From IMG/VR virus record IMGVR_UViG_3300044631_000905, positions 23,629 through 87,628 of that record: a stretch of DNA of 64,000 nucleotides; one strand, given 5' to 3'. This document shows, piece by piece, positions 37,723 to 58,216 of this stretch. A program made the position numbers and the translations under genes. Under the pieces are notes generated by a model. The model saw only the letters and a list, made by a program, of their open reading frames with translations. It did no database searches and had not been told where the DNA came from. Every line of letters starts with the position of its first letter. Positions within the stretch are counted from its first letter, which is position 1. Source of the stretch: a virus.

Positions 37723-38133
37723 ATGCCTCAGTTTAATTTCCAAATCGGAAAGAAAAAAACTAGCATGAAAGATATGATGATAATATCTGGAGTGCTTCTT
37801 TTTGTTGTATCTGGAATAGCAGCATTCACAAATCTGCCAAAAGAAAAAGCGTGGTGTGCTGTAGATCAATTGACAAGACCACTAAATATTGATATACTTG
37901 AAGATGTAAAACTTGAAATTGAAGAGATCCGTGCTTGCCGTGCCGAAAAAGCAGTTGGTGATGCTATAGAAAAATTTAAGAAAGAGACAGGATGGAAACC
38001 TGTGGAGATCTTACCTCCAAGATATTCCGAGAAACCAATAGACACTACGGTGTGCTATACTGATGATTGTAAATCATTAGGTGGTGAAATGAGACTTTGT
38101 GCTCCATGGCTTGACGACTGCCTAAAGCAGTAG
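37723..38133 (+). CDS. Membrane-anchored protein with Cys-rich tail
   Basis: A 136-residue protein. Residues about 17-36 are a transmembrane segment (M-M-I-I-S-G-V-L-L-F-V-V-S-G-I-A-A-F). The outer part has six Cys, with C-Y-T-D-D-C near 110 and C-A-P-W-L-D-D-C at the end, suggesting disulfides. A lysis or envelope role is possible (spanin-like layout) but unproven. Its last codons carry the -35 of the tRNA promoter. Confidence 0.55.
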   Translation: MPQFNFQIGKKKTSMKDMMIISGVLLFVVSGIAAFTNLPKEKAWCAVDQLTRPLNIDILEDVKLEIEEIRACRAEKAVGDAIEKFKKETGWKPVEILPPRYSEKPIDTTVCYTDDCKSLGGEMRLCAPWLDDCLKQ

Positions 38134-38139
38134 TATAAT
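38111..38139 (+). promoter_or_regulatory. Consensus promoter for the first tRNA cluster
   Basis: TTGACG (38111-38116), 17 bases, TATAAT (38134-38139). The expected start is about 6 bases before tRNA-Arg. The -35 lies in the coding end of the preceding gene. Confidence 0.85.
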
Positions 38140-38151
38140 ATCCACATACAT

Positions 38152-38225
38152 GCTTCAGTAACTCAGTGGACAAGAGTATCCGCCTTCTAAGCGGTTAGCC
38201 GTTGGTTCGAATCCAACCTGAAGCG
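38152..38225 (+). tRNA. tRNA-Arg (TCT), copy 1
   Basis: Acceptor GCTTCAG with CTGAAGC, anticodon loop CTTCTAA, T loop GGTTCGAATCC. Reads AGA. A second tRNA-Arg(TCT) lies at 52488. Confidence 0.95.
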
Positions 38226-38229
38226 CCTC

Positions 38230-38310
38230 GTCGGTGTGGCGGAATTGGTAGACGCGCTGGGTTTAGGTTCCAGTGACTAGTTCGTGGAGGTTCAAGTCCT
38301 CTCACCGACA
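38230..38310 (+). tRNA. tRNA-Leu (TAG)
   Basis: Acceptor GTCGGTG with CACCGAC, anticodon loop TTTAGGT, short variable arm, T loop GGTTCAAGTCC. Reads CUN leucine codons. Confidence 0.93.
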
Positions 38311-38312
38311 TC

Positions 38313-38384
38313 GGGAGATTAACTCAGCGGTAGAGTGGCTGCCTTACAAGCAGTAAGTCGTTGGTTCGAATCCGACATTTCCCA
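38313..38384 (+). tRNA. tRNA-Val (TAC), copy 1
   Basis: Acceptor GGGAGAT with ATTTCCC (one G-T), anticodon stem GCTGC/GCAGT with loop CTTACAA, T loop GGTTCGAATCC. Second copy at 55584. Confidence 0.93.
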
Positions 38385-38412
38385 TTAACTTCTAGAGGTT
38401 AAATGAAAAACA

Positions 38413-38664
38413 ATGTTATCTGTAAGATGCCGCCTTTGTGGCAAGGAGCTAGAGGCTCACCCAGTCAAGACTAGATCATGTGGATGTCCAAATATGACAT
38501 CCATAACTGGTGATAAAATTTCGGCATTAGACTTGTCTGAAGTTGTGTTGCTGAATTCTGAAAAGAATGTTAAGAAACAACCAATGTTGTCAAATGCTGA
38601 CCTAAAATATCAAGAGGAGCGCCGCCAACGCAAAGTCCGAAAACTTGATTACGAGGTCCGTTAA
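38413..38664 (+). CDS. Zinc-ribbon protein, copy 1
   Basis: An 83-residue protein. C-R-L-C-G-K-E-L-E and S-C-G-C-P-N-M give four or five Cys for one zinc site. The rest includes G-D-K-I-S-A-L-D-L-S-E-V-V-L-L-N and a basic tail R-R-Q-R-K-V-R-K-L-D-Y-E-V-R. A close paralog is at 56143. Nucleic-acid or protein binding is likely; partner unknown. It shares a base with the next gene (TAATG). Confidence 0.65.
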   Translation: MLSVRCRLCGKELEAHPVKTRSCGCPNMTSITGDKISALDLSEVVLLNSEKNVKKQPMLSNADLKYQEERRQRKVRKLDYEVR

Positions 38665-38864
38665 TGATCAATCTTCACCAACGCTACAATCACTATCTAC
38701 ATACGAACAAAAAACATGATCGTGTGAACGAAAAAGTTATAGGGTATGGGTGGACAGATAATGGTTCAGAATTGACTGGTTACTATGTCTTGACAGAACA
38801 CCATAAGTTGTTCTATAATCTTCAAGAACAATTTGAATATATGGAAGGGTGGTCGAGTGGTTGA
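38664..38864 (+). CDS. Small protein ending inside tRNA-Ser
   Basis: A 66-residue protein, M-I-N-L-H-Q-R-Y-N-H-Y-L ... G-Y-G-W-T-D-N-G ... Y-Y-V-L-T-E-H-H-K. Coupled by TAATG to the zinc-ribbon gene. Its last seven codons and stop are the first 22 bases of tRNA-Ser. Function unknown. Confidence 0.5.
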   Translation: MINLHQRYNHYLHTNKKHDRVNEKVIGYGWTDNGSELTGYYVLTEHHKLFYNLQEQFEYMEGWSSG

Positions 38865-38927
38865 TGGCTCTAGTCTTGAAAACTAGCGATGTGAGAGCAT
38901 CCGTGGGTTCGAATCCCACCCCTTCCG
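38843..38927 (+). tRNA. tRNA-Ser (TGA), copy 1
   Basis: Acceptor GGAAGGG with CCCTTCC, anticodon stem CTAGT/ACTAG with loop CTTGAAA, long class II variable arm, T loop GGTTCGAATCC. Second copy at 56412. Confidence 0.95.
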
Positions 38928-38942
38928 TTAACCTTCTCTTAG

Positions 38943-38971
38943 TTGACATAATCTAAAGAGAGTGTTAAAAT
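38943..38971 (+). promoter_or_regulatory. Sigma-70 promoter of porin 1
   Basis: TTGACA (38943-38948), 17 bases, TAAAAT (38966-38971). The leader then forms a perfect 7-pair hairpin ACCGTAC (38984-38990) with GTACGGT (39002-39008). Confidence 0.8.
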
Positions 38972-39040
38972 CTGCCAGACGTGACCGTACCTCAATTAAT
39001 TGTACGGTAACTCGTTATGTACTATAGAACAAAAACATTT

Positions 39041-40540
39041 ATGAAACTCAAACAACTGATGCTCGCACCTGTTGCTCTGGGAATGGTTGCTCCTGTTGCT
39101 GCGAATGCCGCAGATCTCAATATGGCAGCAGTCAATCAATACACTTCCTCAGAACAAGTCTCAAGCATCAAACAACTTTCTGATGTCCAACCTACGGATT
39201 GGGCTTATCAGGCACTTAGCAATCTTGTTGAGCGTTATGGTTGCGTTGCTGGTTATGAAAACGGAACTTACCTTGGTGGTAAGGCAATGACCCGTTTTGA
39301 GGCAGCAGCACTTCTGAATGCTTGTCTGGATCGTGTGACTGAAGTGACCGATGAACTCTCTCGTCTGATGAATGAGTTCCAGAATGAACTGACTGTTCTT
39401 CGTGGTCGTGTTGCTAAACTGGAGAAGCAAACCGCTGCTCTTCAGGCACAGCAGTTTTCCACTACTACCAAACTGCGTGGTGAAGCAACTTTCGTTCTCG
39501 GTGGTGTAGAAGGTGCCCGTCTTGCCAACAATACTAACGTTGGTAACACCGCTTTCAACTATGATGTTCGCCTGAACTTTGACACCTCCTTCACTGGTAA
39601 GGATCTGTTGAAGACTCGTCTGCGTTCTGGCAACTTCTCTTCACAACCTTTCGGTTCTTCTTCTTCGCTGTTCAAACTTGATAAAGCAGAGAGTACTTCC
39701 AATCAAGTACAACTTGATCGTCTCTACTACAGCTTCCCTGCACTTTCTAAGGGCGTGACTCTGACTGCTGGTGCTCTGGTTCGTAACACAGAGATGGCAT
39801 GGACTCCTTCTGCTTACAAGTCCGACATTCTGGACTTCTTCCAAGTTGCTGGCGCTCCTGGAGTTTATAACAAGGCAACTGGTTCTGGTTTTGGTATTCA
39901 GTATGCTCAACCTGGCAAGAAAGGTGGTATTGTTGCTGGTCTGAACTATGTTGCCCAGAACGGTTCGGATAGTTCCAAGGGTCAATTTGATGAGACTGGT
40001 GCTCTGAATACTCTGGCACAAATCGGTTATCGTGCTCCCCAGTACGGTATTGCTTTCGGTTATCGTTATGGTACAGAAGGAACCCGTGTTCGTACCTTCA
40101 ACGCTATCAACGGTGGTTCTGGTAACCTTGCTGCTGGTCAATCTTCTAACAGTTATGCCATCAACGCTTACTGGCAACCTAAGACTTCTGGTATCGTACC
40201 TTCGATCTCTGGTGCTTATGGTTGGAACGATGTTAGCCTGAATGCTGCTGGTCGTACCACTCCTACTGGTGCTACCAACTCCCAGACTTGGTTTGCTGGT
40301 CTTCAGTGGAGCGATGTATTCGCCAAGGGTAACGCTGCTGGTTTCGCCATCGGTGCTCCTGGCAACGCTGCTTCTCTTGCTGATAGTCAGAAAGCTATTA
40401 TGTGGGAAACCTTCTATCGTTACAAGGTTAGCGACAACATCAGCATCACTCCTTCTGTGTTCTATGTGTCTAACAACCAAGGTCTGAAGAATGCTTCGGA
40501 CAACTATGGTGGTGTGATCCAGACGACCTTTAGGTTCTGA
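39041..40540 (+). CDS. Cyanobacterial-type SLH-OprB porin, copy 1
   Basis: A 499-residue outer-membrane porin. Signal peptide M-K-L-K-Q-L-M-L-A-P-V-A ... A-A-N-A, cut near residue 23. Residues 45-95 are an S-layer-homology domain (D-V-Q-P-T-D-W-A-Y-Q-A-L ... M-T-R-F-E-A-A-A-L-L-N-A), a coiled coil follows (100-135), and the rest is a beta barrel ending in the outer-membrane signal R-F. This is the layout of cyanobacterial Som/iron-uptake porins. ATG 39041 matches the start of copy 2; a longer frame starts at 39017. In infection it may change uptake of ions or nutrients or block other phages. Confidence 0.88.
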   Translation: MKLKQLMLAPVALGMVAPVAANAADLNMAAVNQYTSSEQVSSIKQLSDVQPTDWAYQALSNLVERYGCVAGYENGTYLGGKAMTRFEAAALLNACLDRVTEVTDELSRLMNEFQNELTVLRGRVAKLEKQTAALQAQQFSTTTKLRGEATFVLGGVEGARLANNTNVGNTAFNYDVRLNFDTSFTGKDLLKTRLRSGNFSSQPFGSSSSLFKLDKAESTSNQVQLDRLYYSFPALSKGVTLTAGALVRNTEMAWTPSAYKSDILDFFQVAGAPGVYNKATGSGFGIQYAQPGKKGGIVAGLNYVAQNGSDSSKGQFDETGALNTLAQIGYRAPQYGIAFGYRYGTEGTRVRTFNAINGGSGNLAAGQSSNSYAINAYWQPKTSGIVPSISGAYGWNDVSLNAAGRTTPTGATNSQTWFAGLQWSDVFAKGNAAGFAIGAPGNAASLADSQKAIMWETFYRYKVSDNISITPSVFYVSNNQGLKNASDNYGGVIQTTFRF

Positions 40541-40548
40541 TATATACT

Positions 40549-40568
40549 GGGAGGGAAACCTCCCTTTT
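40549..40568 (+). terminator. Terminator after porin 1
   Basis: GGGAGG (40549-40554), GAAA tetraloop, CCTCCC (40559-40564), TTTT. tRNA-Pro begins three bases later. Confidence 0.88.
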
Positions 40569-40570
40569 AT

Positions 40571-40644
40571 CGGGGTGTAGCTCAGTTTGGTAGAGCACTC
40601 GCTTTGGGAGCGAGATGCCGTAGGTTCAAATCCTATCACCCCGA
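40571..40644 (+). tRNA. tRNA-Pro (TGG), copy 1
   Basis: Acceptor CGGGGTG with CACCCCG, anticodon stem CTCGC/GCGAG with loop TTTGGGA, T loop GGTTCAAATCC. Second copy at 57196. Confidence 0.95.
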
Positions 40645-40672
40645 CTTTACTATATAATTTTTTACGTGTCAT

Positions 40673-40918
40673 ATGTCGTTCACCATCTATTCAAAACAAG
40701 GTTGTCCATTCTGTCAAAAATGCATAGCAGTAATGGAACATGAAGGTTTTACCCACGTTGTTTATGAACTAGATAAAGATTTCACAAGAGAAGAATTCTA
40801 TGCTGAATTTGGTGAAGGATCTACATTTCCACAAATTATGTTAGATGACATCCGACTTGGTGGATGTCGAGAAACTATAAATTACTTACAAGAAAACAAT
40901 GTCTGCTGTAATGTCTGA
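40673..40918 (+). CDS. grx: Glutaredoxin
   Basis: An 81-residue thioredoxin-fold protein with active site G-C-P-F-C (about 9-13), the cis-Pro T-F-P-Q-I (about 51-55) and G-G-C-R-E glutathione-binding region. It likely reduces the ribonucleotide reductase C-terminal C-x-x-C. It overlaps the next gene by 8 bases. Confidence 0.9.
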   Translation: MSFTIYSKQGCPFCQKCIAVMEHEGFTHVVYELDKDFTREEFYAEFGEGSTFPQIMLDDIRLGGCRETINYLQENNVCCNV

Positions 40919-41159
40919 AGAAATAATCGAAATCACAGAACTAGAACTGGAAAAAAACTTTGACGAAATTATGGAGCGTGTGGAAAATGGTGAAACATAC
41001 ATCATTCGTAGAGAAGATGGGTCTGCTGTTGCCATGATTCCAGCATCCTTAGTTGAAGAAGCTGGAATTAATCTGAAGACGGTTTCTAAAGTGGCACAAC
41101 CCCTTGACAACGACGACGATATGTGGGATAATTACTTTGATCACGACGATGCTTCATGA
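40911..41159 (+). CDS. Phd/YefM antitoxin-like protein
   Basis: An 82-residue protein. I-I-E-I-T-E-L-E-L-E-K-N-F-D-E-I-M-E-R-V-E-N-G-E-T-Y-type start followed by I-R-R-E-D-G-S-A-V-A-M-I-P matches the Phd/YefM fold, with an acidic tail. No typical toxin follows. It could neutralise a host toxin or act as an autoregulator; both are inference. ATG 40911 is preferred, ATG 40899 is also possible. Confidence 0.6.
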   Translation: MSEEIIEITELELEKNFDEIMERVENGETYIIRREDGSAVAMIPASLVEEAGINLKTVSKVAQPLDNDDDMWDNYFDHDDAS

Positions 41160-41395
41160 CCAAACCCACTGTAATTCTTGAACGTTCTCCTTATCGCTAT
41201 GTTCAGTGTGGTCTTTTAGAGATCAACGGTAAACCAGATTACCGTATTCAAAAGTTTAATGAATGGACCAAGCGTTATACTGACATGTATTTCCTTGACA
41301 ACCAGATGCAACTTGATGTATGCTTGGAAGATCCTGAGTATACCAAGTGGTTAGATCCAGACCCTGAAGTGGGTGCCTATCGTAAATTTGATTGA
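41156..41395 (+). CDS. Small acidic-aromatic protein, copy 1
   Basis: A 79-residue protein: V-I-L-E-R-S-P-Y-R-Y-V-Q-C-G-L-L-E-I-N-G-K-P-D-Y-R-I-Q, then W-T-K-R-Y-T-D-M-Y-F-L-D-N and E-D-P-E-Y-T-K-W-L. A clear paralog with the same block order is at 57558-57803. Both copies start with an ATGA overlap to the gene before and precede element A. Function unknown. Confidence 0.6.
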   Translation: MTKPTVILERSPYRYVQCGLLEINGKPDYRIQKFNEWTKRYTDMYFLDNQMQLDVCLEDPEYTKWLDPDPEVGAYRKFD

Positions 41396-41400
41396 TTACC

Positions 41401-41718
41401 ATGACTGTTCGTTCCCATATTGAAACTGCTGAAGAAGCACTTCGCCAAGCACTGATTAATGCTCTTGCCGAAAAGCAAGATGCTCAACTGTCAGAATTGT
41501 TTGATGCTCTTGGTAAAGTAAAGAGCATTTTAAATGCTTATCCTATTCGTTCTACTGATAATACTAGCGATTATAAATTCAAACTGACCTCTGAATATCT
41601 TCATAACGGATATGTAAACTACACGATGAGTGGTCTTGATGAACAACCATATGATAATGTAATCAGTTTCACTAATATTGGTGGTGGCAATTCTCCTGAC
41701 ACTATCAAGTTCAGTTAG
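41401..41718 (+). CDS. Hypothetical protein, 105 aa
   Basis: Helical start (E-T-A-E-E-A-L-R-Q-A-L-I-N-A-L-A-E-K) then a beta-rich half with S-D-Y-K-F-K-L-T-S-E-Y-L and Y-V-N-Y-T-M-S-G-L. No counterpart in the second cassette copy. Start ATG 41401 follows the previous stop by five bases. Confidence 0.5.
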   Translation: MTVRSHIETAEEALRQALINALAEKQDAQLSELFDALGKVKSILNAYPIRSTDNTSDYKFKLTSEYLHNGYVNYTMSGLDEQPYDNVISFTNIGGGNSPDTIKFS

Positions 41719-41768
41719 TCCTGGAATGACTTAAAACTTATCCTGGTGGAGTCATCCCCGTAAATGCC

Positions 41769-41809
41769 CGTGATGGAGACACGTAAACAACCCTGGTCGG
41801 GACCCCCCT
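41769..41809 (+). ncRNA. Conserved non-coding element A, copy 1
   Basis: Hairpin CGTG (41769-41772), 7-base loop, CACG (41780-41783), then CTGGTCGGGA (41793-41802) and a C6-T run. Copy 2 at 57805-57850 keeps the layout but swaps the last base pair (CGTC with GACG). It sits in the leader of the next gene. Confidence 0.5.
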
Positions 41810-41844
41810 CGATACCACACACACATACACACAGGAGATTAATT

Positions 41845-42054
41845 ATGTCCAAAACACCTTACGAGCTTCGCTTTGAAATTTTCAAGCAAGCATATAATAT
41901 GCTGAACGATGAGTTCTGCGTTAAATATGATACTGCTAGAGAGTGGAATGAAAAGACTGGAAAACTGGATCTCGAATTTCCAGAATTTCCTACTTTGAAT
42001 GAAGTTCTCAAACAAGCAGATATCATTAACAACTTCGTTTCCGAACCGAAGTAG
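41845..42054 (+). CDS. Conserved small cyanophage protein, 69 aa
   Basis: ATG 41845 has a good SD (AGGAG, 41833-41837). Helical protein M-S-K-T-P-Y-E-L-R-F-E-I-F-K-Q-A-Y-N-M-L, then R-E-W-N-E-K-T-G-K and F-P-T-L-N-E-V-L-K-Q-A. Seen in other cyanomyoviruses as a hypothetical. A CA-repeat tract (41815-41832) lies just upstream. Confidence 0.6.
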   Translation: MSKTPYELRFEIFKQAYNMLNDEFCVKYDTAREWNEKTGKLDLEFPEFPTLNEVLKQADIINNFVSEPK

Positions 42055-42057
42055 GTT

Positions 42058-42141
42058 TCCAATTTCCTAAAAAAATTGGTGGTGCGGATGGGACTCTCTC
42101 CCGCCTGTTTCCTAGTTCAGTAAAAACTAGGTGGCGAGCCT
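42058..42141 (+). ncRNA. Conserved non-coding element B, copy 1
   Basis: Hairpin CCAATTT with AAATTGG (42058-42078), then a 27-base block identical to copy 2 (42081-42107, GGTGCGGATG to CCCGCCTG), then hairpin CCTAGTT (42111-42117) with AACTAGG (42125-42131), then TGGCGAGCC. In copy 2 (58141-58204) the last hairpin is CCAATTT/GAATTGG, so the pairing is kept while the sequence changes. Confidence 0.6.
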
Positions 42142-42169
42142 AGCACGGGGGGTTGACATCCCCCACCTC

Positions 42170-42241
42170 GCGGACATAGTTCAGTGGTAGAACGCTATCC
42201 TTCCAAGTTAGATGTCGTCGGTTCGAATCCGATTGTCCGCT
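42170..42241 (+). tRNA. tRNA-Gly (TCC), copy 1
   Basis: Acceptor GCGGACA with TGTCCGC, anticodon loop CTTCCAA, T loop GGTTCGAATCC. A run of six T (42241-42246) follows and may end the transcript. Second copy at 53630. Confidence 0.93.
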
Positions 42242-52299: not shown

Positions 52300-52381
52300 G
52301 GACAGGTGTCCGAGTGGTTAATGGAGGCGGACTGTAAATCCGCTGGCTCTGCCTACGGGGGTTCAAATCCCTCCCTGCCCA
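52300..52381 (+). tRNA. tRNA-Tyr (GTA)
   Basis: Anticodon stem GCGGA/TCCGC with loop CTGTAAA, long class II variable arm, T loop GGTTCAAATCC. The acceptor GGACAGG/CCTGCCC has one A-C mismatch at pair 3-70. Confidence 0.9.
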
Positions 52382-52383
52382 CC

Positions 52384-52412
52384 TTGACGACTCTCTCAAG
52401 GACTGCTATAAT
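52384..52412 (+). promoter_or_regulatory. Consensus promoter for pseudoknot RNA and tRNA-Arg
   Basis: TTGACG (52384-52389), 17 bases, TATAAT (52407-52412). Confidence 0.88.
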
Positions 52413-52418
52413 ATGAGA

Positions 52419-52487
52419 GTTGAGAGATCAACTGCGGCACTCCCCTTCGGTAGGTTCAGGAGTGGCGGCGATAGGAACCTACTTATG
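52419..52487 (+). ncRNA. Structured leader RNA with H-type pseudoknot
   Basis: After the promoter a hairpin GTTGA/TCAAC with a GAGA tetraloop is followed by two crossing helices: CACTCC (52438-52443) with GGAGTG (52459-52464), and GTAGGTTC (52450-52457) with GAACCTAC (52475-52482). Linkers of 6, 1 and 10 bases fit a classic H-type pseudoknot. It ends 5 bases before tRNA-Arg, so RNase P processing would release it. No protein is encoded. Confidence 0.65.
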
Positions 52488-52558
52488 GGCGTATGGTGAA
52501 GTGGATTATCACACGGCTCTTCTAAAGCCTTATCTCAGGTTCGAATCCTGATACGCCT
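52488..52558 (+). tRNA. tRNA-Arg (TCT), copy 2
   Basis: Acceptor GGCGTAT with ATACGCC, anticodon loop CTTCTAA, T stem TCAGG/CCTGA with TTCGAAT. It differs greatly from copy 1 at 38152 apart from the anticodon loop. Confidence 0.92.
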
Positions 52559-52565
52559 GCTATAA

Positions 52566-52606
52566 TAGTTCAGTTGTATAAATAACAATATATATCTACT
52601 GAACTA
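52566..52606 (+). promoter_or_regulatory. Late promoter inside a long inverted repeat
   Basis: TATAAATA (52577-52584), exact late consensus, lies between TAGTTCAGT (52566-52574) and ACTGAACTA (52598-52606). The HNH gene starts at the next base. Confidence 0.75.
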
Positions 52607-53170
52607 ATGGAATATTCTATTCTTAAATCCTTTGTGGAACAAAAAATGTCTATAAGGGATATTGGTAAAAAAACAAATAAAAGTGCTACAAGTATTAGAT
52701 ATTGGTTGAATAAGTATAAATTGAAAACGGCAAATAAATCATTTAGTGACGGTTATATTGGTGAAAATCATATTCTTAGAGTTGATGGTAAACCAATACA
52801 AAATTGCTCCAAATGTGGAATTTTTTTAAATGAAGAAACTGGATATTGGCGTGAAAGTAAAAAGGTATGGCAAGCAAATTGTAAAAAATGCCATAACAAT
52901 TATAATGCTGATAGGTGGAAAAATAGTAAGAAAAAAGCAGTAGAGTATAAGGGTGGAAAATGTGAAAAATGTGGATATAATAAATGTATTGATGCCTTAG
53001 AATTTCATCATATTGACCCAGATCAAAAAGATAAAAATTTTGGAAATTTAAAATTAAGAAAATGGGAAGACCAGAAAAAAGAACTTGATAAGTGTGTATG
53101 TGTATGTGCTAATTGTCATAGAGAAATACACGCAGAACTTAGACTTGACATTATTTCAGAATTAGTGTAA
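52607..53170 (+). CDS. HNH homing-type endonuclease
   Basis: A 187-residue protein. Helix-turn-helix N-terminus (S-I-R-D-I-G-K-K-T-N-K-S-A-T-S-I-R-Y-W-L), zinc fingers C-S-K-C, C-K-K-C, C-E-K-C and C-A-N-C, and the catalytic H-H-I-D-P near 132 with N-C-H-R-E-I-H at the end. Strongly AT-rich, unlike its neighbours, so probably a mobile freestanding endonuclease that entered the tRNA cluster. Confidence 0.85.
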   Translation: MEYSILKSFVEQKMSIRDIGKKTNKSATSIRYWLNKYKLKTANKSFSDGYIGENHILRVDGKPIQNCSKCGIFLNEETGYWRESKKVWQANCKKCHNNYNADRWKNSKKKAVEYKGGKCEKCGYNKCIDALEFHHIDPDQKDKNFGNLKLRKWEDQKKELDKCVCVCANCHREIHAELRLDIISELV

Positions 53171-53173
53171 TAT
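53145..53173 (+). promoter_or_regulatory. Consensus promoter in the end of the HNH gene
   Basis: TTGACA (53145-53150), 17 bases, TAATAT (53168-53173). It points at the structured RNA and tRNA-Asn. Confidence 0.75.
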
Positions 53174-53179
53174 ATAAAA

Positions 53180-53327
53180 GTGATAGAGGTTAAGTCCCTG
53201 TTACATCCTTATGAGGTGTATCACACTTAATCCATCAAATGTAGGAAGTGCAACACCTCTCGCTGGTTTAGTCTGGATGATGTGAAAGGTGATTCTGTCT
53301 GCACATAGAAATCCCTCCTACCACCAA
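53180..53327 (+). ncRNA. Two-domain structured RNA before tRNA-Asn
   Basis: Domain 1: TTAAGT (53190-53195) with ACTTAA (53225-53230), enclosing ACATCCT/AGGTGT. Domain 2: nested helices GTAGGA (53241) with TCCTAC (53316), GTGCA (53248) with TGCAC (53300), CACCT (53254) with AGGTG (53287). No convincing ORF. It has its own promoter and ends at tRNA-Asn. No known family recognised. Confidence 0.6.
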
Positions 53328-53400
53328 TCCCCTATAGCACAATTGGCAGTGCGCGGAGCTGTTAACTCTGAGGTTGTTTGTTCGAGTCAAACTGGGGGAG
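53328..53400 (+). tRNA. tRNA-Asn (GTT)
   Basis: Acceptor TCCCCTA with TGGGGGA, anticodon loop CTGTTAA, T loop TTTGTTCGAGTCAAA. Confidence 0.92.
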
Positions 53401-53479
53401 TTGGAAGGTCTGGAAATGTCTGGGTCTTCCTTTCTAAATCCTAACTTTGTTAGGTCGGGGAATTGATCACCCCCGCGTT
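53401..53479 (+). other. Structured spacer between tRNA-Asn and tRNA-Thr
   Basis: Contains GGAAG/CTTCC, CCTAAC-TTT-GTTAGG and CGGGG/CCCCG inverted repeats. No gene seen; possibly processing signals or a small RNA. Confidence 0.4.
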
Positions 53480-53551
53480 GCCCTTGTAGCTCAGTGGTAG
53501 AGCAACGGTTTTGTAAACCGTTGGTCGTCTGTTCGAATCAGATCGGGGGCT
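53480..53551 (+). tRNA. tRNA-Thr (TGT)
   Basis: Acceptor GCCCTTG with CGGGGGC, anticodon stem ACGGT/ACCGT with loop TTTGTAA, T loop TGTTCGAATCA. Confidence 0.93.
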
Positions 53552-53579
53552 TGACATAATACTCATTATGTCTTATACT
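53551..53579 (+). promoter_or_regulatory. Consensus promoter for tRNA-Gly
   Basis: TTGACA (53551-53556), 17 bases, TATACT (53574-53579). A perfect GACATAAT/ATTATGTC hairpin overlaps the -35. A GGGAGA/TCTCCC hairpin (53607-53624) lies in the leader before the tRNA. Confidence 0.85.
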
Positions 53580-53629
53580 TTATACTTCCGTGTGAAGTGA
53601 AGTGCTGGGAGAGTCAAATCTCCCACATT

Positions 53630-53700
53630 GCGAATGTGGTGTAGCGGTAACATCCCATCCTTCCAAGTTGGTGTCACGGGTTCGATCCCCGTCATTCGCT
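53630..53700 (+). tRNA. tRNA-Gly (TCC), copy 2
   Basis: Acceptor GCGAATG with CATTCGC, anticodon stem CCATC/GTTGG with loop CTTCCAA, T loop GGTTCGATCCC. Confidence 0.94.
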
Positions 53701-53717
53701 TCTTAACCAAATCTTAA

Positions 53718-53746
53718 TTGACATAAGACCAAAAGTGCTGTAAGAT
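53718..53746 (+). promoter_or_regulatory. Sigma-70 promoter of porin 2
   Basis: TTGACA (53718-53723), 17 bases, TAAGAT (53741-53746). A late-type box CCTAAATA (53776-53783) and a perfect 9-pair hairpin AAGATTTAC/GTAAATCTT (53787-53810) follow in the leader. Confidence 0.75.
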
Positions 53747-53775
53747 ACTCTCATCTTAAGGTTTGCTTAAGACCC

Positions 53776-53783
53776 CCTAAATA
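53776..53783 (+). promoter_or_regulatory. Late box CCTAAATA before porin 2
   Basis: Variant late box 60 bases upstream of porin 2; copy 1 lacks an obvious one. Confidence 0.45.
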
Positions 53784-53843
53784 ACGAAGATTTACTTTGT
53801 TGTAAATCTTTACATTGTCGTTTAGTACACAAAAAACATTTTT

Positions 53844-55328
53844 ATGAAAATCAAACAACTGATGCTTGCACCTGTTGCTCTTGGTATGATTGCTCCTGCT
53901 GTTGCGAATGCCGCAGACCTTAATATTGCAGCAGTCAATCAATACTCTTCTGAGCAGGCAACAAGCGTCACTCAATTCTCTGATGTTCAACCTTCTGATT
54001 GGGCATATCAGGCACTTAGCAACCTTGTGGAGCGTTATGGTTGCGTAGCAGGATATCCTAACGGCACTTATGGTGGTGGTAAGGCAATGACCCGTTATGA
54101 GGCAGCAGCACTCCTGAATGCCTGTCTGGATCGTGTAACTGAAGTAACTGATGAACTTCAGCGTCTTTCGAAAGAATTTGCTGAAGAACTTCTAGTTATT
54201 CGTGGTCGTGTTGATAAACTGGAAGCACAAGTTGGTCAACTTCAAGCAACTCAGTTCTCCACTACATCTAAACTGCGTGGTGAAGCAACCTTCGTTCTTG
54301 GTGGTGTAGAAGGTGCTCGTCTTGCTAACAACACTAACGTTGGCAACACAGCATTCAACTATGATGTTCGTCTGAACTTCGATACTTCTTTCACTGGCAA
54401 GGATTTGCTGAAGACTCGTCTGCGTTCTGGTAATTTCTCCAGTCAACCCTTTGGTTCTTCTTCGTCTCTGTTCAAACTGGATAAGGCAGAAAGCACTTCT
54501 AACCAAGTACAACTTGATCGTCTGTACTATCAGTTTCCTGCTCTCACCAAAGGTCTCAATTTGACTGCTGGTGCTCTGGTTCGTAACACTGAGATGTCTT
54601 GGATTCCTACTGCTTATAAGTCTGACATTCTGGACTTCTTTGCTGTTGCAGGCGCTCCTGGTGTTTACAACAAAGCAACTGGTTCTGGTTTCGGTGCTCA
54701 GTGGGCACAACCTACTAAGAAAGGTAAGGGTGGATTCGTTGCTGGTGTGAACTATGTTGCCCAGAACGGTTCCGATTCTAGCAAAGGGGAATTTGATGAA
54801 TCTGGTGCTTTGAATACTCTGGCACAGTTTGGTTATCGTGCTCCTCAGTATGGCATCGCATTTGGTTATCGTTATGGTACTGAAGGCACTCGTGTTCGCA
54901 CCTTCAATGGTGTTTCTGGTAATGCTGGTACTCTTGCCGCTAATCAAACCTCTAATGGTTATGCCGTGAATGCTTACTGGCAACCTAAGAAGTCTGGCAT
55001 CATTCCTTCTGTGAGTGGTGCTTATGGGTGGAACACTGTAGAAGGTCCTGCTACTCCCCGTGCTGCTACTAAGTCTGAGACTTGGTTTGCTGGTGTCCAG
55101 TGGGCAGATGTGTTTGCTAAGGGTAATGCTGCTGGTTTTGCCATCGGTGCTCCTGGCAATGCTGCTTCCCTCACTAAGGATGCTCTGATGTGGGAAACCT
55201 TCTATCGCTATCGTGTGAGTGATAATATTAGCATCACTCCTGCAATCTTCTATGTTTCCAATAATCAAGGATTCAAGAATGCTTCTTCTAACTATGGTGG
55301 TGTGATTCAGACCCAGTTTAGGTTCTGA
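53844..55328 (+). CDS. Cyanobacterial-type SLH-OprB porin, copy 2
   Basis: A 494-residue paralog of 39041-40540 with the same signal peptide, SLH domain and barrel ending R-F. The first barrel strands (L-R-G-E-A-T-F-V-L-G-G-V onward) are nearly identical, while the coiled coil (100-135) and some outer loops differ. Two diverged copies imply different pore or surface properties. Confidence 0.88.
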   Translation: MKIKQLMLAPVALGMIAPAVANAADLNIAAVNQYSSEQATSVTQFSDVQPSDWAYQALSNLVERYGCVAGYPNGTYGGGKAMTRYEAAALLNACLDRVTEVTDELQRLSKEFAEELLVIRGRVDKLEAQVGQLQATQFSTTSKLRGEATFVLGGVEGARLANNTNVGNTAFNYDVRLNFDTSFTGKDLLKTRLRSGNFSSQPFGSSSSLFKLDKAESTSNQVQLDRLYYQFPALTKGLNLTAGALVRNTEMSWIPTAYKSDILDFFAVAGAPGVYNKATGSGFGAQWAQPTKKGKGGFVAGVNYVAQNGSDSSKGEFDESGALNTLAQFGYRAPQYGIAFGYRYGTEGTRVRTFNGVSGNAGTLAANQTSNGYAVNAYWQPKKSGIIPSVSGAYGWNTVEGPATPRAATKSETWFAGVQWADVFAKGNAAGFAIGAPGNAASLTKDALMWETFYRYRVSDNISITPAIFYVSNNQGFKNASSNYGGVIQTQFRF

Positions 55329-55352
55329 TATTCTAACTACATAGTGTAAACT

Positions 55353-55371
55353 GGGGGGTGAAACCCCCCTT
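55353..55371 (+). terminator. Terminator-like hairpin after porin 2
   Basis: GGGGGG, TGAAA loop, CCCCCC, TT. Short T run, so moderate strength. Confidence 0.6.
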
Positions 55372-55403
55372 CCCAAATCTGATTAAACTAGAGCATTTAA
55401 AAA

Positions 55404-55577
55404 ATGAAAATAACACTCTGGTACTGTGAATCTATGCAACAATGGCGATGGACCTTATGTGATTCCTCTCGCCCTGTTCGTAGGCAAGAATCTGGTCAAC
55501 AACCATTTCTTCGTGATGCTATGAATGATATTGCAAATACAGTAGAATTTATGCTAGAATCTAGTTATCCTGATTGA
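55404..55577 (+). CDS. Small protein, 57 aa
   Basis: M-K-I-T-L-W-Y-C-E-S-M-Q-Q-W-R-W-T-L-C, then a helix D-A-M-N-D-I-A-N-T-V-E-F-M-L-E-S. Lies between porin 2 and tRNA-Val. Function unknown. Confidence 0.5.
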   Translation: MKITLWYCESMQQWRWTLCDSSRPVRRQESGQQPFLRDAMNDIANTVEFMLESSYPD

Positions 55578-55583
55578 TTTATT

Positions 55584-55655
55584 GGGCGATTGGCACAGCG
55601 GTAGCGCGGATCCCTTACAAGGATTAGGTCACTGGTTCGAATCCAGTATCGCCCA
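55584..55655 (+). tRNA. tRNA-Val (TAC), copy 2
   Basis: Acceptor GGGCGAT with ATCGCCC, anticodon loop CTTACAA, T loop GGTTCGAATCC. Confidence 0.94.
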
Positions 55656-55658
55656 CTT

Positions 55659-55666
55659 TATAAATA
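55659..55666 (+). promoter_or_regulatory. Late promoter TATAAATA of the Dps-like gene
   Basis: Exact late consensus, starting 4 bases after tRNA-Val and 23 bases before ATG 55689. Confidence 0.8.
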
Positions 55667-55688
55667 CTTGAAAAAAAGTATTGGTGTA

Positions 55689-56126
55689 ATGGAAAAATTA
55701 TATAAGTTACTTTCTGATACTCAGGCAAGTTTGTTTGTCCTCTTTCAGAAGACTTGGGTTTATCATTGGCACGTTGTTGGACCTGATTTTAAGCAGATTC
55801 ATGACTTATTTGGTGAACAGTATGTTGCTCTTCAAGAAGAAGTTGATCGTATTGCCGAGCATATGAGATTTCTTGAAATCAAACCAGTTAGTTCTTTGTC
55901 TAGAGTTGTAGAAGTTTCTGGTATTGGTGAAGCAAAATCTAATATTTCCGAAATGGAAATGATTCGTGATTTGATGGATGGACATCAAAAAATAATTACC
56001 ATGCTTTCTGATGCTGCTATGGAAGCAGACGAACAAAAGTCAAGAGGAACAGTTAATCTTCTTGATGATTTAAATGAAGCACACGGCAAATTCGTTTGGA
56101 TGCTTCGATCATTTACTGAAAAATAA
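55689..56126 (+). CDS. dps: Dps-like ferritin-family protein
   Basis: A 145-residue protein. F-Q-K-T-W-V-Y-H-W-H-V-V-G-P-D-F (about 19-34), H-D-L-F near 38 and E-E-V-D-R-I-A-E-H (about 50-58) give the Dps ferroxidase pattern, though the second H/E set should be checked. Dps binds DNA and stores iron, protecting against peroxide. Expressed late, so it may protect packaged or newly made DNA. ATG 55689 preferred over TTG 55668. Confidence 0.82.
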   Translation: MEKLYKLLSDTQASLFVLFQKTWVYHWHVVGPDFKQIHDLFGEQYVALQEEVDRIAEHMRFLEIKPVSSLSRVVEVSGIGEAKSNISEMEMIRDLMDGHQKIITMLSDAAMEADEQKSRGTVNLLDDLNEAHGKFVWMLRSFTEK

Positions 56127-56142
56127 TTAACTTATTGTAGAG

Positions 56143-56400
56143 ATGGAAAATTTAAGAATCAGATGCCGCTCTTGTAATAGAGAGTTGGAAGGGCATCAAA
56201 CGAAAACAGTATCTTGTGGTTGCTCAAATATGGCAACTATTCGTGGGGATAAAATTTCAGCAGTTGACTTATCCTCTGTTGTTATGCTAAACTCTATACA
56301 TACCAAATCAAAATCTGGTGTTCTTACAAACGAAGACCTTGCTTTTCAAGAAGCACGGCGTCAGCGTAAAGTGAGACGTTTAGATTTTGAAGTCCGCTGA
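56143..56400 (+). CDS. Zinc-ribbon protein, copy 2
   Basis: An 85-residue paralog of 38413-38664: C-R-S-C-N-R-E-L-E, S-C-G-C-S-N-M, G-D-K-I-S-A-V-D-L-S and the same basic tail. Both copies sit just before tRNA-Ser. Confidence 0.65.
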   Translation: MENLRIRCRSCNRELEGHQTKTVSCGCSNMATIRGDKISAVDLSSVVMLNSIHTKSKSGVLTNEDLAFQEARRQRKVRRLDFEVR

Positions 56401-56411
56401 GGACTTATTTT

Positions 56412-56497
56412 GGAAGATTGGCCGAGTGGTTGATGGCGATAGTCTTGAAAACTATTAACGTTAGTAGCGTTCCAGGGTTCGAATCCCTGATCTTCCT
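56412..56497 (+). tRNA. tRNA-Ser (TGA), copy 2
   Basis: Acceptor GGAAGAT with ATCTTCC, anticodon stem ATAGT/ACTAT with loop CTTGAAA, long variable arm, T loop GGTTCGAATCC. Confidence 0.95.
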
Positions 56498-56557
56498 TGT
56501 TACAAATATTACAAAATTTTAGATTTTTTTAATCTATATTTTCGTATCAACACAAAC

Positions 56558-56585
56558 TTGACATAGTAGAAATACTTACTAGAAT
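56558..56585 (+). promoter_or_regulatory. Sigma-70 promoter of the small-gene cluster
   Basis: TTGACA (56558-56563), 16 bases, TAGAAT (56580-56585), 27 bases before ATG 56612. Confidence 0.65.
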
Positions 56586-56611
56586 AACTAGTAGTATTCA
56601 ACCTAAACCCT

Positions 56612-56761
56612 ATGGATCAGCACACCTATGATAACTGGGTGAAGATCAAGGAGACATTCGAATCTTCTGGGAACACTGATAATATGTTCTATAAAAGAGC
56701 AGTTGAGATTGTTAAAACCAAGAGAGATCCTCTTGCAAAGTTTCTTGGTGATGAAAAATGA
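56612..56761 (+). CDS. Small soluble protein, 49 aa
   Basis: M-D-Q-H-T-Y-D-N-W-V-K-I-K-E-T-F-E-S-S-G then a helix with F-Y-K-R-A-V-E-I-V-K-T-K-R. Overlaps the next gene by 4 bases (ATGA). Function unknown. Confidence 0.55.
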   Translation: MDQHTYDNWVKIKETFESSGNTDNMFYKRAVEIVKTKRDPLAKFLGDEK

Positions 56762-56961
56762 TGTATGAGCATGAAGAATTTATTACGCGCTCAGAAGTTC
56801 AGGAGATGATCGATGCAGCAATACGACGACACAACCGCAATGCTTCTATCATTAGTATGTGCGTCGGTTGGGTGGTTCTTGCTCTATTTGCTGAGGGACT
56901 TTTAAGGTTAATCGGTGTTATTCCACCATTACTCCCATTTCTTAAAATTACTCTTAACTAA
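56758..56961 (+). CDS. Small membrane protein, 67 aa
   Basis: Charged N-terminal helix (E-V-Q-E-M-I-D-A-A-I-R-R-H), then one span (about 31-50, I-S-M-C-V-G-W-V-V-L-A-L-F-A-E-G-L-L) and a second hydrophobic patch with P-P-L-L-P. Function unknown. Confidence 0.55.
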   Translation: MMYEHEEFITRSEVQEMIDAAIRRHNRNASIISMCVGWVVLALFAEGLLRLIGVIPPLLPFLKITLN

Positions 56962-56969
56962 TCTTTTAT

Positions 56970-57074
56970 ATGGAAAAAGAAAATATGAGTAGCACAATAT
57001 TTTCAGCAATGACTATTTTTGGTATAATAGGTTTATTGATTATTTGGTCACTTGATCACGCATATGTAAAATGA
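56970..57074 (+). CDS. Tiny membrane protein, 34 aa
   Basis: One span S-A-M-T-I-F-G-I-I-G-L-L-I-I-W-S-L. Overlaps the next ORF by 4 bases (ATGA), which supports translation. Size is like photosystem small subunits, but no match is recognised. Confidence 0.45.
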   Translation: MEKENMSSTIFSAMTIFGIIGLLIIWSLDHAYVK

Positions 57075-57187
57075 TCTTTCATATTGTAGAATATCTGGCA
57101 CATAGTCCAGTTTGGTTGTTTATATGTGGTATGGGGTTGACAACCGTTCCAATAATGGGTATAATGTTTATACACCGAACTAAATAA
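57071..57187 (+). CDS. Tiny membrane protein, 38 aa
   Basis: Two-part hydrophobic sequence (V-W-L-F-I-C-G-M-G-L-T-T-V-P-I-M-G-I-M-F-I). Its codons contain a full consensus promoter, so the sequence serves two roles or the ORF is accidental. Confidence 0.4.
   Translation: MIFHIVEYLAHSPVWLFICGMGLTTVPIMGIMFIHRTK
57137..57165 (+). promoter_or_regulatory. Perfect consensus promoter for tRNA-Pro
   Basis: TTGACA (57137-57142), 17 bases, TATAAT (57160-57165), exact at all 12 positions. Late-type CTAAATA (57180-57186) also precedes the tRNA. Confidence 0.9.
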
Positions 57188-57195
57188 CGGTGTAA

Positions 57196-57269
57196 CGGGG
57201 TGTAGCGCAGTTTGGTAGCGCATCCGCTTTGGGAGCGGGAGGTCGTAGGTTCGAATCCTATTACCCCGA
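57196..57269 (+). tRNA. tRNA-Pro (TGG), copy 2
   Basis: Acceptor CGGGGTG with TACCCCG, anticodon stem with CCGC/GCGG and loop TTTGGGA, T loop GGTTCGAATCC. The 5' 20 bases are nearly the same as copy 1. Confidence 0.95.
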
Positions 57270-58079: not shown

Positions 58080-58140
58080 AACTGAGTGGTGGAGTCAAAT
58101 ATGACCCTATATGAGTTTACGGCATCTCTCAAATGACGTT

Positions 58141-58204
58141 GGTGCGGATGGGACTCTCTCCCGCCTGGTTTCCAATTTCCAGTCAAAGAATTGGTGGCGA
58201 GCCT
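58141..58204 (+). ncRNA. Conserved non-coding element B, copy 2
   Basis: 27-base block identical to copy 1 (58141-58167), hairpin CCAATTT (58172-58178) with GAATTGG (58188-58194), then TGGCGAGCC. See 42058. Confidence 0.6.
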
Positions 58205-58216
58205 GAAAGACCTAGG

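Follow-up and report, generated by a model that had tools for sequence, protein, structure and literature searches.

At 52384-52560 of the window, the 64,000-nucleotide stretch of viral DNA analysed here, a promoter, a small structured RNA and a tRNA-Arg(UCU) gene follow one another, and the RNA belongs, as far as sequence comparison can tell, to a new family of small, folded RNAs that T4-like cyanophages encode. Comparison across the family shows that its three helices, P0, P1 and P2, are under selection and that P1 crosses P2 to form an H-type pseudoknot. The virus record holding the window is 87.6 kb long, and its gene content and nearest matches lead us to judge that its source is also a T4-like cyanophage.

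Layout and distribution of the element

The features of the element are given below. Pairing is counted over a covariation set of 70 distinct cores from the loci listed, in which the 14 pairs of P1 and P2 make up 980 cells.

52384..52412, + strand: sigma70-type promoter TTGACG-17-TATAAT (TTGACG 52384-52389, TATAAT 52407-52412), read from the sequence
52419..52432, + strand: P0 hairpin GTTGA-GAGA-TCAAC, 5 bp (strands 52419-52423 and 52428-52432), its first G being the predicted +1
52433..52437, + strand: junction UGCGG between P0 and P1, identical in 70 of 70 cores and also part of the search pattern
52438..52443, + strand: P1 5' strand CACTCC (6 bp), all cells paired, two-sided changes in 4 of 6 pairs
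52444..52447, + strand: loop L1 CCUU (CCTT in DNA), invariant in the alignment, proposed third strand of a major-groove triplex
52450..52457, + strand: P2 5' strand GTAGGTTC (8 bp), 99.8% of cells paired, two-sided changes in 4 of 8 pairs
52458..52458, + strand: single-nucleotide junction A, invariant
52459..52464, + strand: P1 3' strand GGAGTG, from the covariation analysis
52465..52474, + strand: loop L3 GCGGCGAUAG, nearly invariant
52475..52482, + strand: P2 3' strand GAACCTAC, from the covariation analysis
52487..52560, + strand: tRNA-Arg(UCU), from ARAGORN and Rfam RF00005

Six bases separate TATAAT from the P0 hairpin, CG stands between CCTT of L1 and the P2 5' strand GTAGGTTC, and the P1 3' strand GGAGTG is followed by GCGGCGATAG, the P2 3' strand GAACCTAC, TTAT and the tRNA at 52487. 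An earlier note on this DNA had described the promoter, a GNRA hairpin, crossing helices of 6 and 8 pairs and tRNA-Arg(TCT), and reading the sequence bears out all of these to within one base. Between +1 and the RNase P cut, the RNA is predicted to cover 52419-52486 and to be 68 nt long, one base off the roughly 69 bases given in that note. The GAGA loop of P0 is present in the window as described, but a GNRA loop is not a conserved trait of the family, in which P0 loops range from 3 to 28 nt.

Searching related cyanophage genomes for the segment, as the earlier note had suggested, was productive. Blastn with the segment recovered S-SKS1, SynMITS9220M01, AG-345-E02, ACG-2014f and S-SCSM2R; with additional searches the set grew to include P-SSM2, P-SSM5, S-SM2, Bellamy, S-B43, S-B05, S-H68 and RB11-B. 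At least 12 GenBank T4-like cyanophages carry the RNA, at least 120 IMG/VR stretches match the pattern from the first alignment, and RNA-bearing viral-contig loci number at least 213. Among records with the RNA, copies were counted in 9 GenBank phages and 4 virus contigs, and each has exactly one significant copy; eight other cyanophages had no copy, and S-BM3 gave only a weak match (E 0.37). The RNA is single in 212 of the 213 loci listed. Among these, L062 is the only locus with two copies, one of which is followed by tRNA-Pro(UGG).

Outside viruses, an exact-pattern scan of GTDB contigs gave six matches, none of them cyanobacterial and none with the full motif; they were taken as chance matches, and a host origin was rejected. 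Rfam 15, whose models do not encode pseudoknots, has no family that reaches its gathering cut-off on the element (the window, 12 member loci and, with E allowed up to 10, 52380-52600 were scanned). Identity with a known Rfam family was rejected accordingly, and no paper describing the element was found in the open-access PMC literature. The nearest relatives in kind are the wcaG and manA RNAs (RF01761, RF01745), structured RNAs of T4-like cyanophages (Weinberg 2010, PMC2864571). They too lie beside metabolic genes or tRNAs, their ligand is unproven, and both occur near the element; they differ from it in sequence and structure, and the element, for its part, has its promoter's predicted +1 as its first base. 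As to homology with wcaG, UGCGG and GGCGA are present in both RNAs, but the folds differ by eye. Two wcaG RNAs (Rfam) lie in the window, at 42051-42145 and 58111-58208, the first of them 25 nt before a tRNA-Gly.

With regard to the 5' end, a promoter was called where at least 9 of the 12 consensus bases matched at the position before P0, which was the case in 137 of 162 members compared with 11 of 748 control positions. Of the 137 promoter-bearing members, 127 have a 6-nt gap between the -10 box and the first G of P0. The gap is kept at any length of the P0 loop and also in members whose promoter and P0 fall within the last part of a coding sequence. Given this spacing, the RNA should begin with P0 at its extreme 5' end, and the first G of P0 should be the first base of the transcript. 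A few members, for example L037, L049 and L125, have no recognisable promoter. Upstream of L078, L024 and L051, the -35 TTGACG sits in the loop of a terminator-like hairpin (GGGATC TTGAC GATCCC TTTTTTT), forming a fused terminator-promoter.

Comparative support for the pseudoknot

A perfect H-type layout of 6+8 bp is rare by chance: in 20,000 dinucleotide shuffles of the segment (68 nt) it never appeared. On the + strand the window has no such layout besides the element, and uniqueness alone is weak evidence because three more sit on the - strand. Folded with nested pairs only, the 68 nt do not stand out (z -0.92), and a nested MFE calculation cannot inform on a pseudoknot. The decisive support for the predicted structure is covariation. 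Across the 70 cores, standard pairs fill 99.9% of the 980 cells of P1 and P2, with 157 two-sided changes against 47 +/- 5 in shuffles (0 of 500 shuffles reach 157) and a covariation score of 0.516 against 0.203. Sliding the partner strands by 1-3 columns lowers pairing to 50% or less. Changes in the length of P2 are also matched, since the common GGTA-GTTC and GTAGGTTC forms each come with a fitting 3' strand. P0, which was examined apart from the core owing to its variable loop length, has standard pairs at positions 1-4 in all 137 promoter-bearing members, with two-sided changes in pairs 2-4.

Two crossing helices with compensatory change and fitting loop lengths, as expected of an H-type pseudoknot, are thus present. 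The earlier note had proposed an H-type pseudoknot RNA with its own promoter, and this is supported, the RNA being conserved as well; the attempt to refute it through helix loss in homologous phages failed, as the helices are kept and covary. Taken alone, the covariation is also compatible with P1 and P2 being mutually exclusive hairpins, but this is less likely because the loops hardly change in length or in bases.

The loops of the crossing-helix core are almost fixed (L1 CCUU, the 1-nt junction A and L3 GCGGC[GU]AUAG of 9-10 nt), part of this invariance being imposed by the search pattern itself. Targeted scans of IMG/VR for departures from it gave no matches with U-A changed in P2, with the junction A changed or with GCGGC altered to GCGHC in L3, and a single match, L162, with the last U of L1 changed. 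Moreover, no variation is seen in the three P2 pairs closest to the junction, though base pairing alone would permit it. A telomerase-like pyrimidine triplex, with 5'-CCUU-3' of L1 running parallel to 5'-GGAA-3' of P2, would explain exactly the invariant positions of L1 and P2; the contacts would be, in alignment columns, C12.G43, C13+.G44-C26, U14.A45-U25 and U15.A46-U24. Scans for triple-compensated variants returned none, which says nothing for or against the triplex. In the pseudoknots of telomerase RNA, SAM-II and preQ1-II, as may be the case here, a pyrimidine L1 could occupy the major groove of P2 as a triple helix; those RNAs differ from the element in host range, context and conserved letters.

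Genes behind the RNA

The next feature was recorded for 166 members with flanks. It is tRNA-Arg(UCU) in 59 and tRNA-Pro(UGG) in 23, an ORF within 45 nt in 60, a second strong promoter in 11 and another context in 13. The tRNA starts 2-5 nt past P2 in all 82 tRNA-linked members, and some members head tRNA clusters. In an earlier count, 69 of 69 directly downstream tRNAs were Arg(UCU) or Pro(UGG), compared with 104 of the 379 tRNAs in the loci, an enrichment whose p-value is nominal since the loci are related. The RNA is always on the strand of the next gene, and mRNA-linked copies mostly lie 14-36 nt from the start codon, with no terminator in between and no visible 3' end. The proteins encoded downstream are unrelated and include DUF6561, purM, phrog_3704, def, gp32, psbA, PstS-like and small membrane proteins, among others, the names def, psbA and PstS-like resting on reading of the translated starts and not on a family search. 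In S-SKS1-type phages, a TTGACT-17-TATAAT promoter stands a few nucleotides after the RNA and drives the next gene, which therefore needs no RNA. Shine-Dalgarno-like motifs are rarer in RNA-linked ORFs than in other ORFs of the same contigs (5 of 50 against 148 of 472; p about 0.001), in a comparison where members are not independent and a few of the linked ORFs are tRNA-class artefacts.

The window itself contains a second tRNA-Arg(UCU) unit, which lacks the RNA:

38111..38227, + strand: site without the RNA, with TTGACG-17-TATAAT, a 9-nt gap after TATAATATC and tRNA-Arg(UCU) 38152-38227, from comparison with L055

This site and the related contig L055 are identical at 54 of 59 positions upstream and in the promoter and at 71 of 74 in the tRNA, and L055 has 72 nt with the RNA where the window has 9 nt. 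The RNA is thus unnecessary for such tRNA units. The link to tRNA genes therefore stands for about half of the members, the others being followed by a second promoter or by protein genes unrelated to one another, and the riboswitch-like leader controlling the tRNA that the earlier note had offered is not supported as a general rule. A tRNA-specific leader was likewise rejected as the general rule on the same two grounds, the non-tRNA contexts and the RNA-less tRNA-Arg in the window genome.

Other features of the window were recorded alongside. Its two tRNA groups, at 38152-42241 and 52300-57269, share genes for Arg(UCU), Val(UAC), Ser(UGA), Pro(UGG) and Gly(UCC). Directly 3' of the tRNA-Arg behind the element lies a weakly HNH-like endonuclease ORF (52607-53170, below the Pfam cut-off); L057 and L242 have similar ORFs beside the RNA, and in L038 the tRNA-Arg appears to be interrupted by one. 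The gene at 53844-55328 encodes a porin with SLH and OprB domains that resembles the outer-membrane porins of cyanobacteria, and a gene for a ferritin-like (Dps-type) protein lies at 55668-56126.

Possible modes of action

The leading reading, a tentative one, is that the element works in trans as a separate phage RNA that resists nucleases and that RNase P would release where a tRNA comes next. Transcription would start at P0, the pseudoknot would fold while emerging, and both ends of the RNA, sealed in helices, would resist RNase E and RNase J. RNase P cuts precursors at the 5' end of the tRNA, as would be expected beside the element, and would release the RNA from tRNA-linked copies; in mRNA-linked copies a nuclease may cleave the AU-rich linker. 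The product would be a compact sealed RNA of about 65-85 nt whose invariant core may engage a host or phage factor in trans, as a decoy or inhibitor, the downstream gene being incidental to its action. Phage T4 offers a likeness in its stable RNAs C and D, which lie in its tRNA cluster and are likewise non-tRNA RNAs made together with tRNAs, with no sequence relation claimed. Action in trans is favoured by the single copy, the lack of a common downstream function, the second promoter and the RNA-less tRNA-Arg in the same genome. Against it, the RNA needs a 3' end in the mRNA-linked copies, where none is visible, and the single copy per genome could equally reflect one specialised use in cis. 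A bolder version, in which a triple-helix pseudoknot RNA cut from tRNA and mRNA precursors binds and blocks a conserved host factor, such as a ribonuclease or a defence protein, as an agent of host takeover or anti-defence widespread among ocean cyanophages, is unlikely. By analogy only, the element resembles ToxI-type RNAs, also small H-type pseudoknot RNAs: a phage copy of such an antitoxin RNA, described in PMC3475682, can block a host defence nuclease. ToxI consists of tandem repeats beside a toxin gene, however, whereas the element has one copy per locus and no ToxN-like gene among the downstream proteins examined, so it does not qualify as a type III antitoxin RNA.

A cis-acting 5' leader, whose cap-like paired 5' end and pseudoknot would guard transcripts against RNase E and RNase J, or else govern how they are translated or processed, in front of any gene that the phage needs, is possible, though less probable than action in trans. 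The next gene, which always shares the strand of the RNA, lies at a short and constant distance, and this favours a leader, as do the pairing of the first base at the predicted +1 and the poverty of RNA-linked ORFs in Shine-Dalgarno-like motifs; both nucleases are present in cyanobacteria (PMC10989914). One copy per genome is at odds with a general stabiliser, which would serve many times, and the second promoter in S-SKS1-type phages and the RNA-less tRNA-Arg in the window genome also speak against a leader, which RNase P would moreover remove, so that it cannot protect the mature tRNA. An antitermination or polymerase-modifying element of the nascent RNA, working like the put RNAs of phage HK022, would suit a position that is always promoter-proximal, a start at the predicted +1 and the unrelated units that the RNA heads, but the single copy per genome speaks against it, and it is improbable. 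More doubtful still is a riboswitch, in which the invariant core would bind a metabolite and control the gene behind it. Near-invariant loops are in keeping with one, and SAM-II, preQ1-II and guanidine-III are H-type pseudoknot aptamers with L1-P2 triplexes; on the other hand, the downstream genes have no functional theme, half of the members precede tRNAs, P2 overlaps neither a ribosome-binding site nor a terminator, and inspection of the flanks revealed no expression platform.

Cyanomyoviruses rank among the most abundant marine viruses, and only a few non-coding RNAs are known from them. The element is strongly conserved, easily detected and present in culturable phages such as P-SSM2, S-SM2, S-SKS1 and Bellamy. 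Action in trans would make it a phage RNA effector, and action in cis a 5'-terminal RNA cap that protects phage transcripts during the degradation of host RNA.
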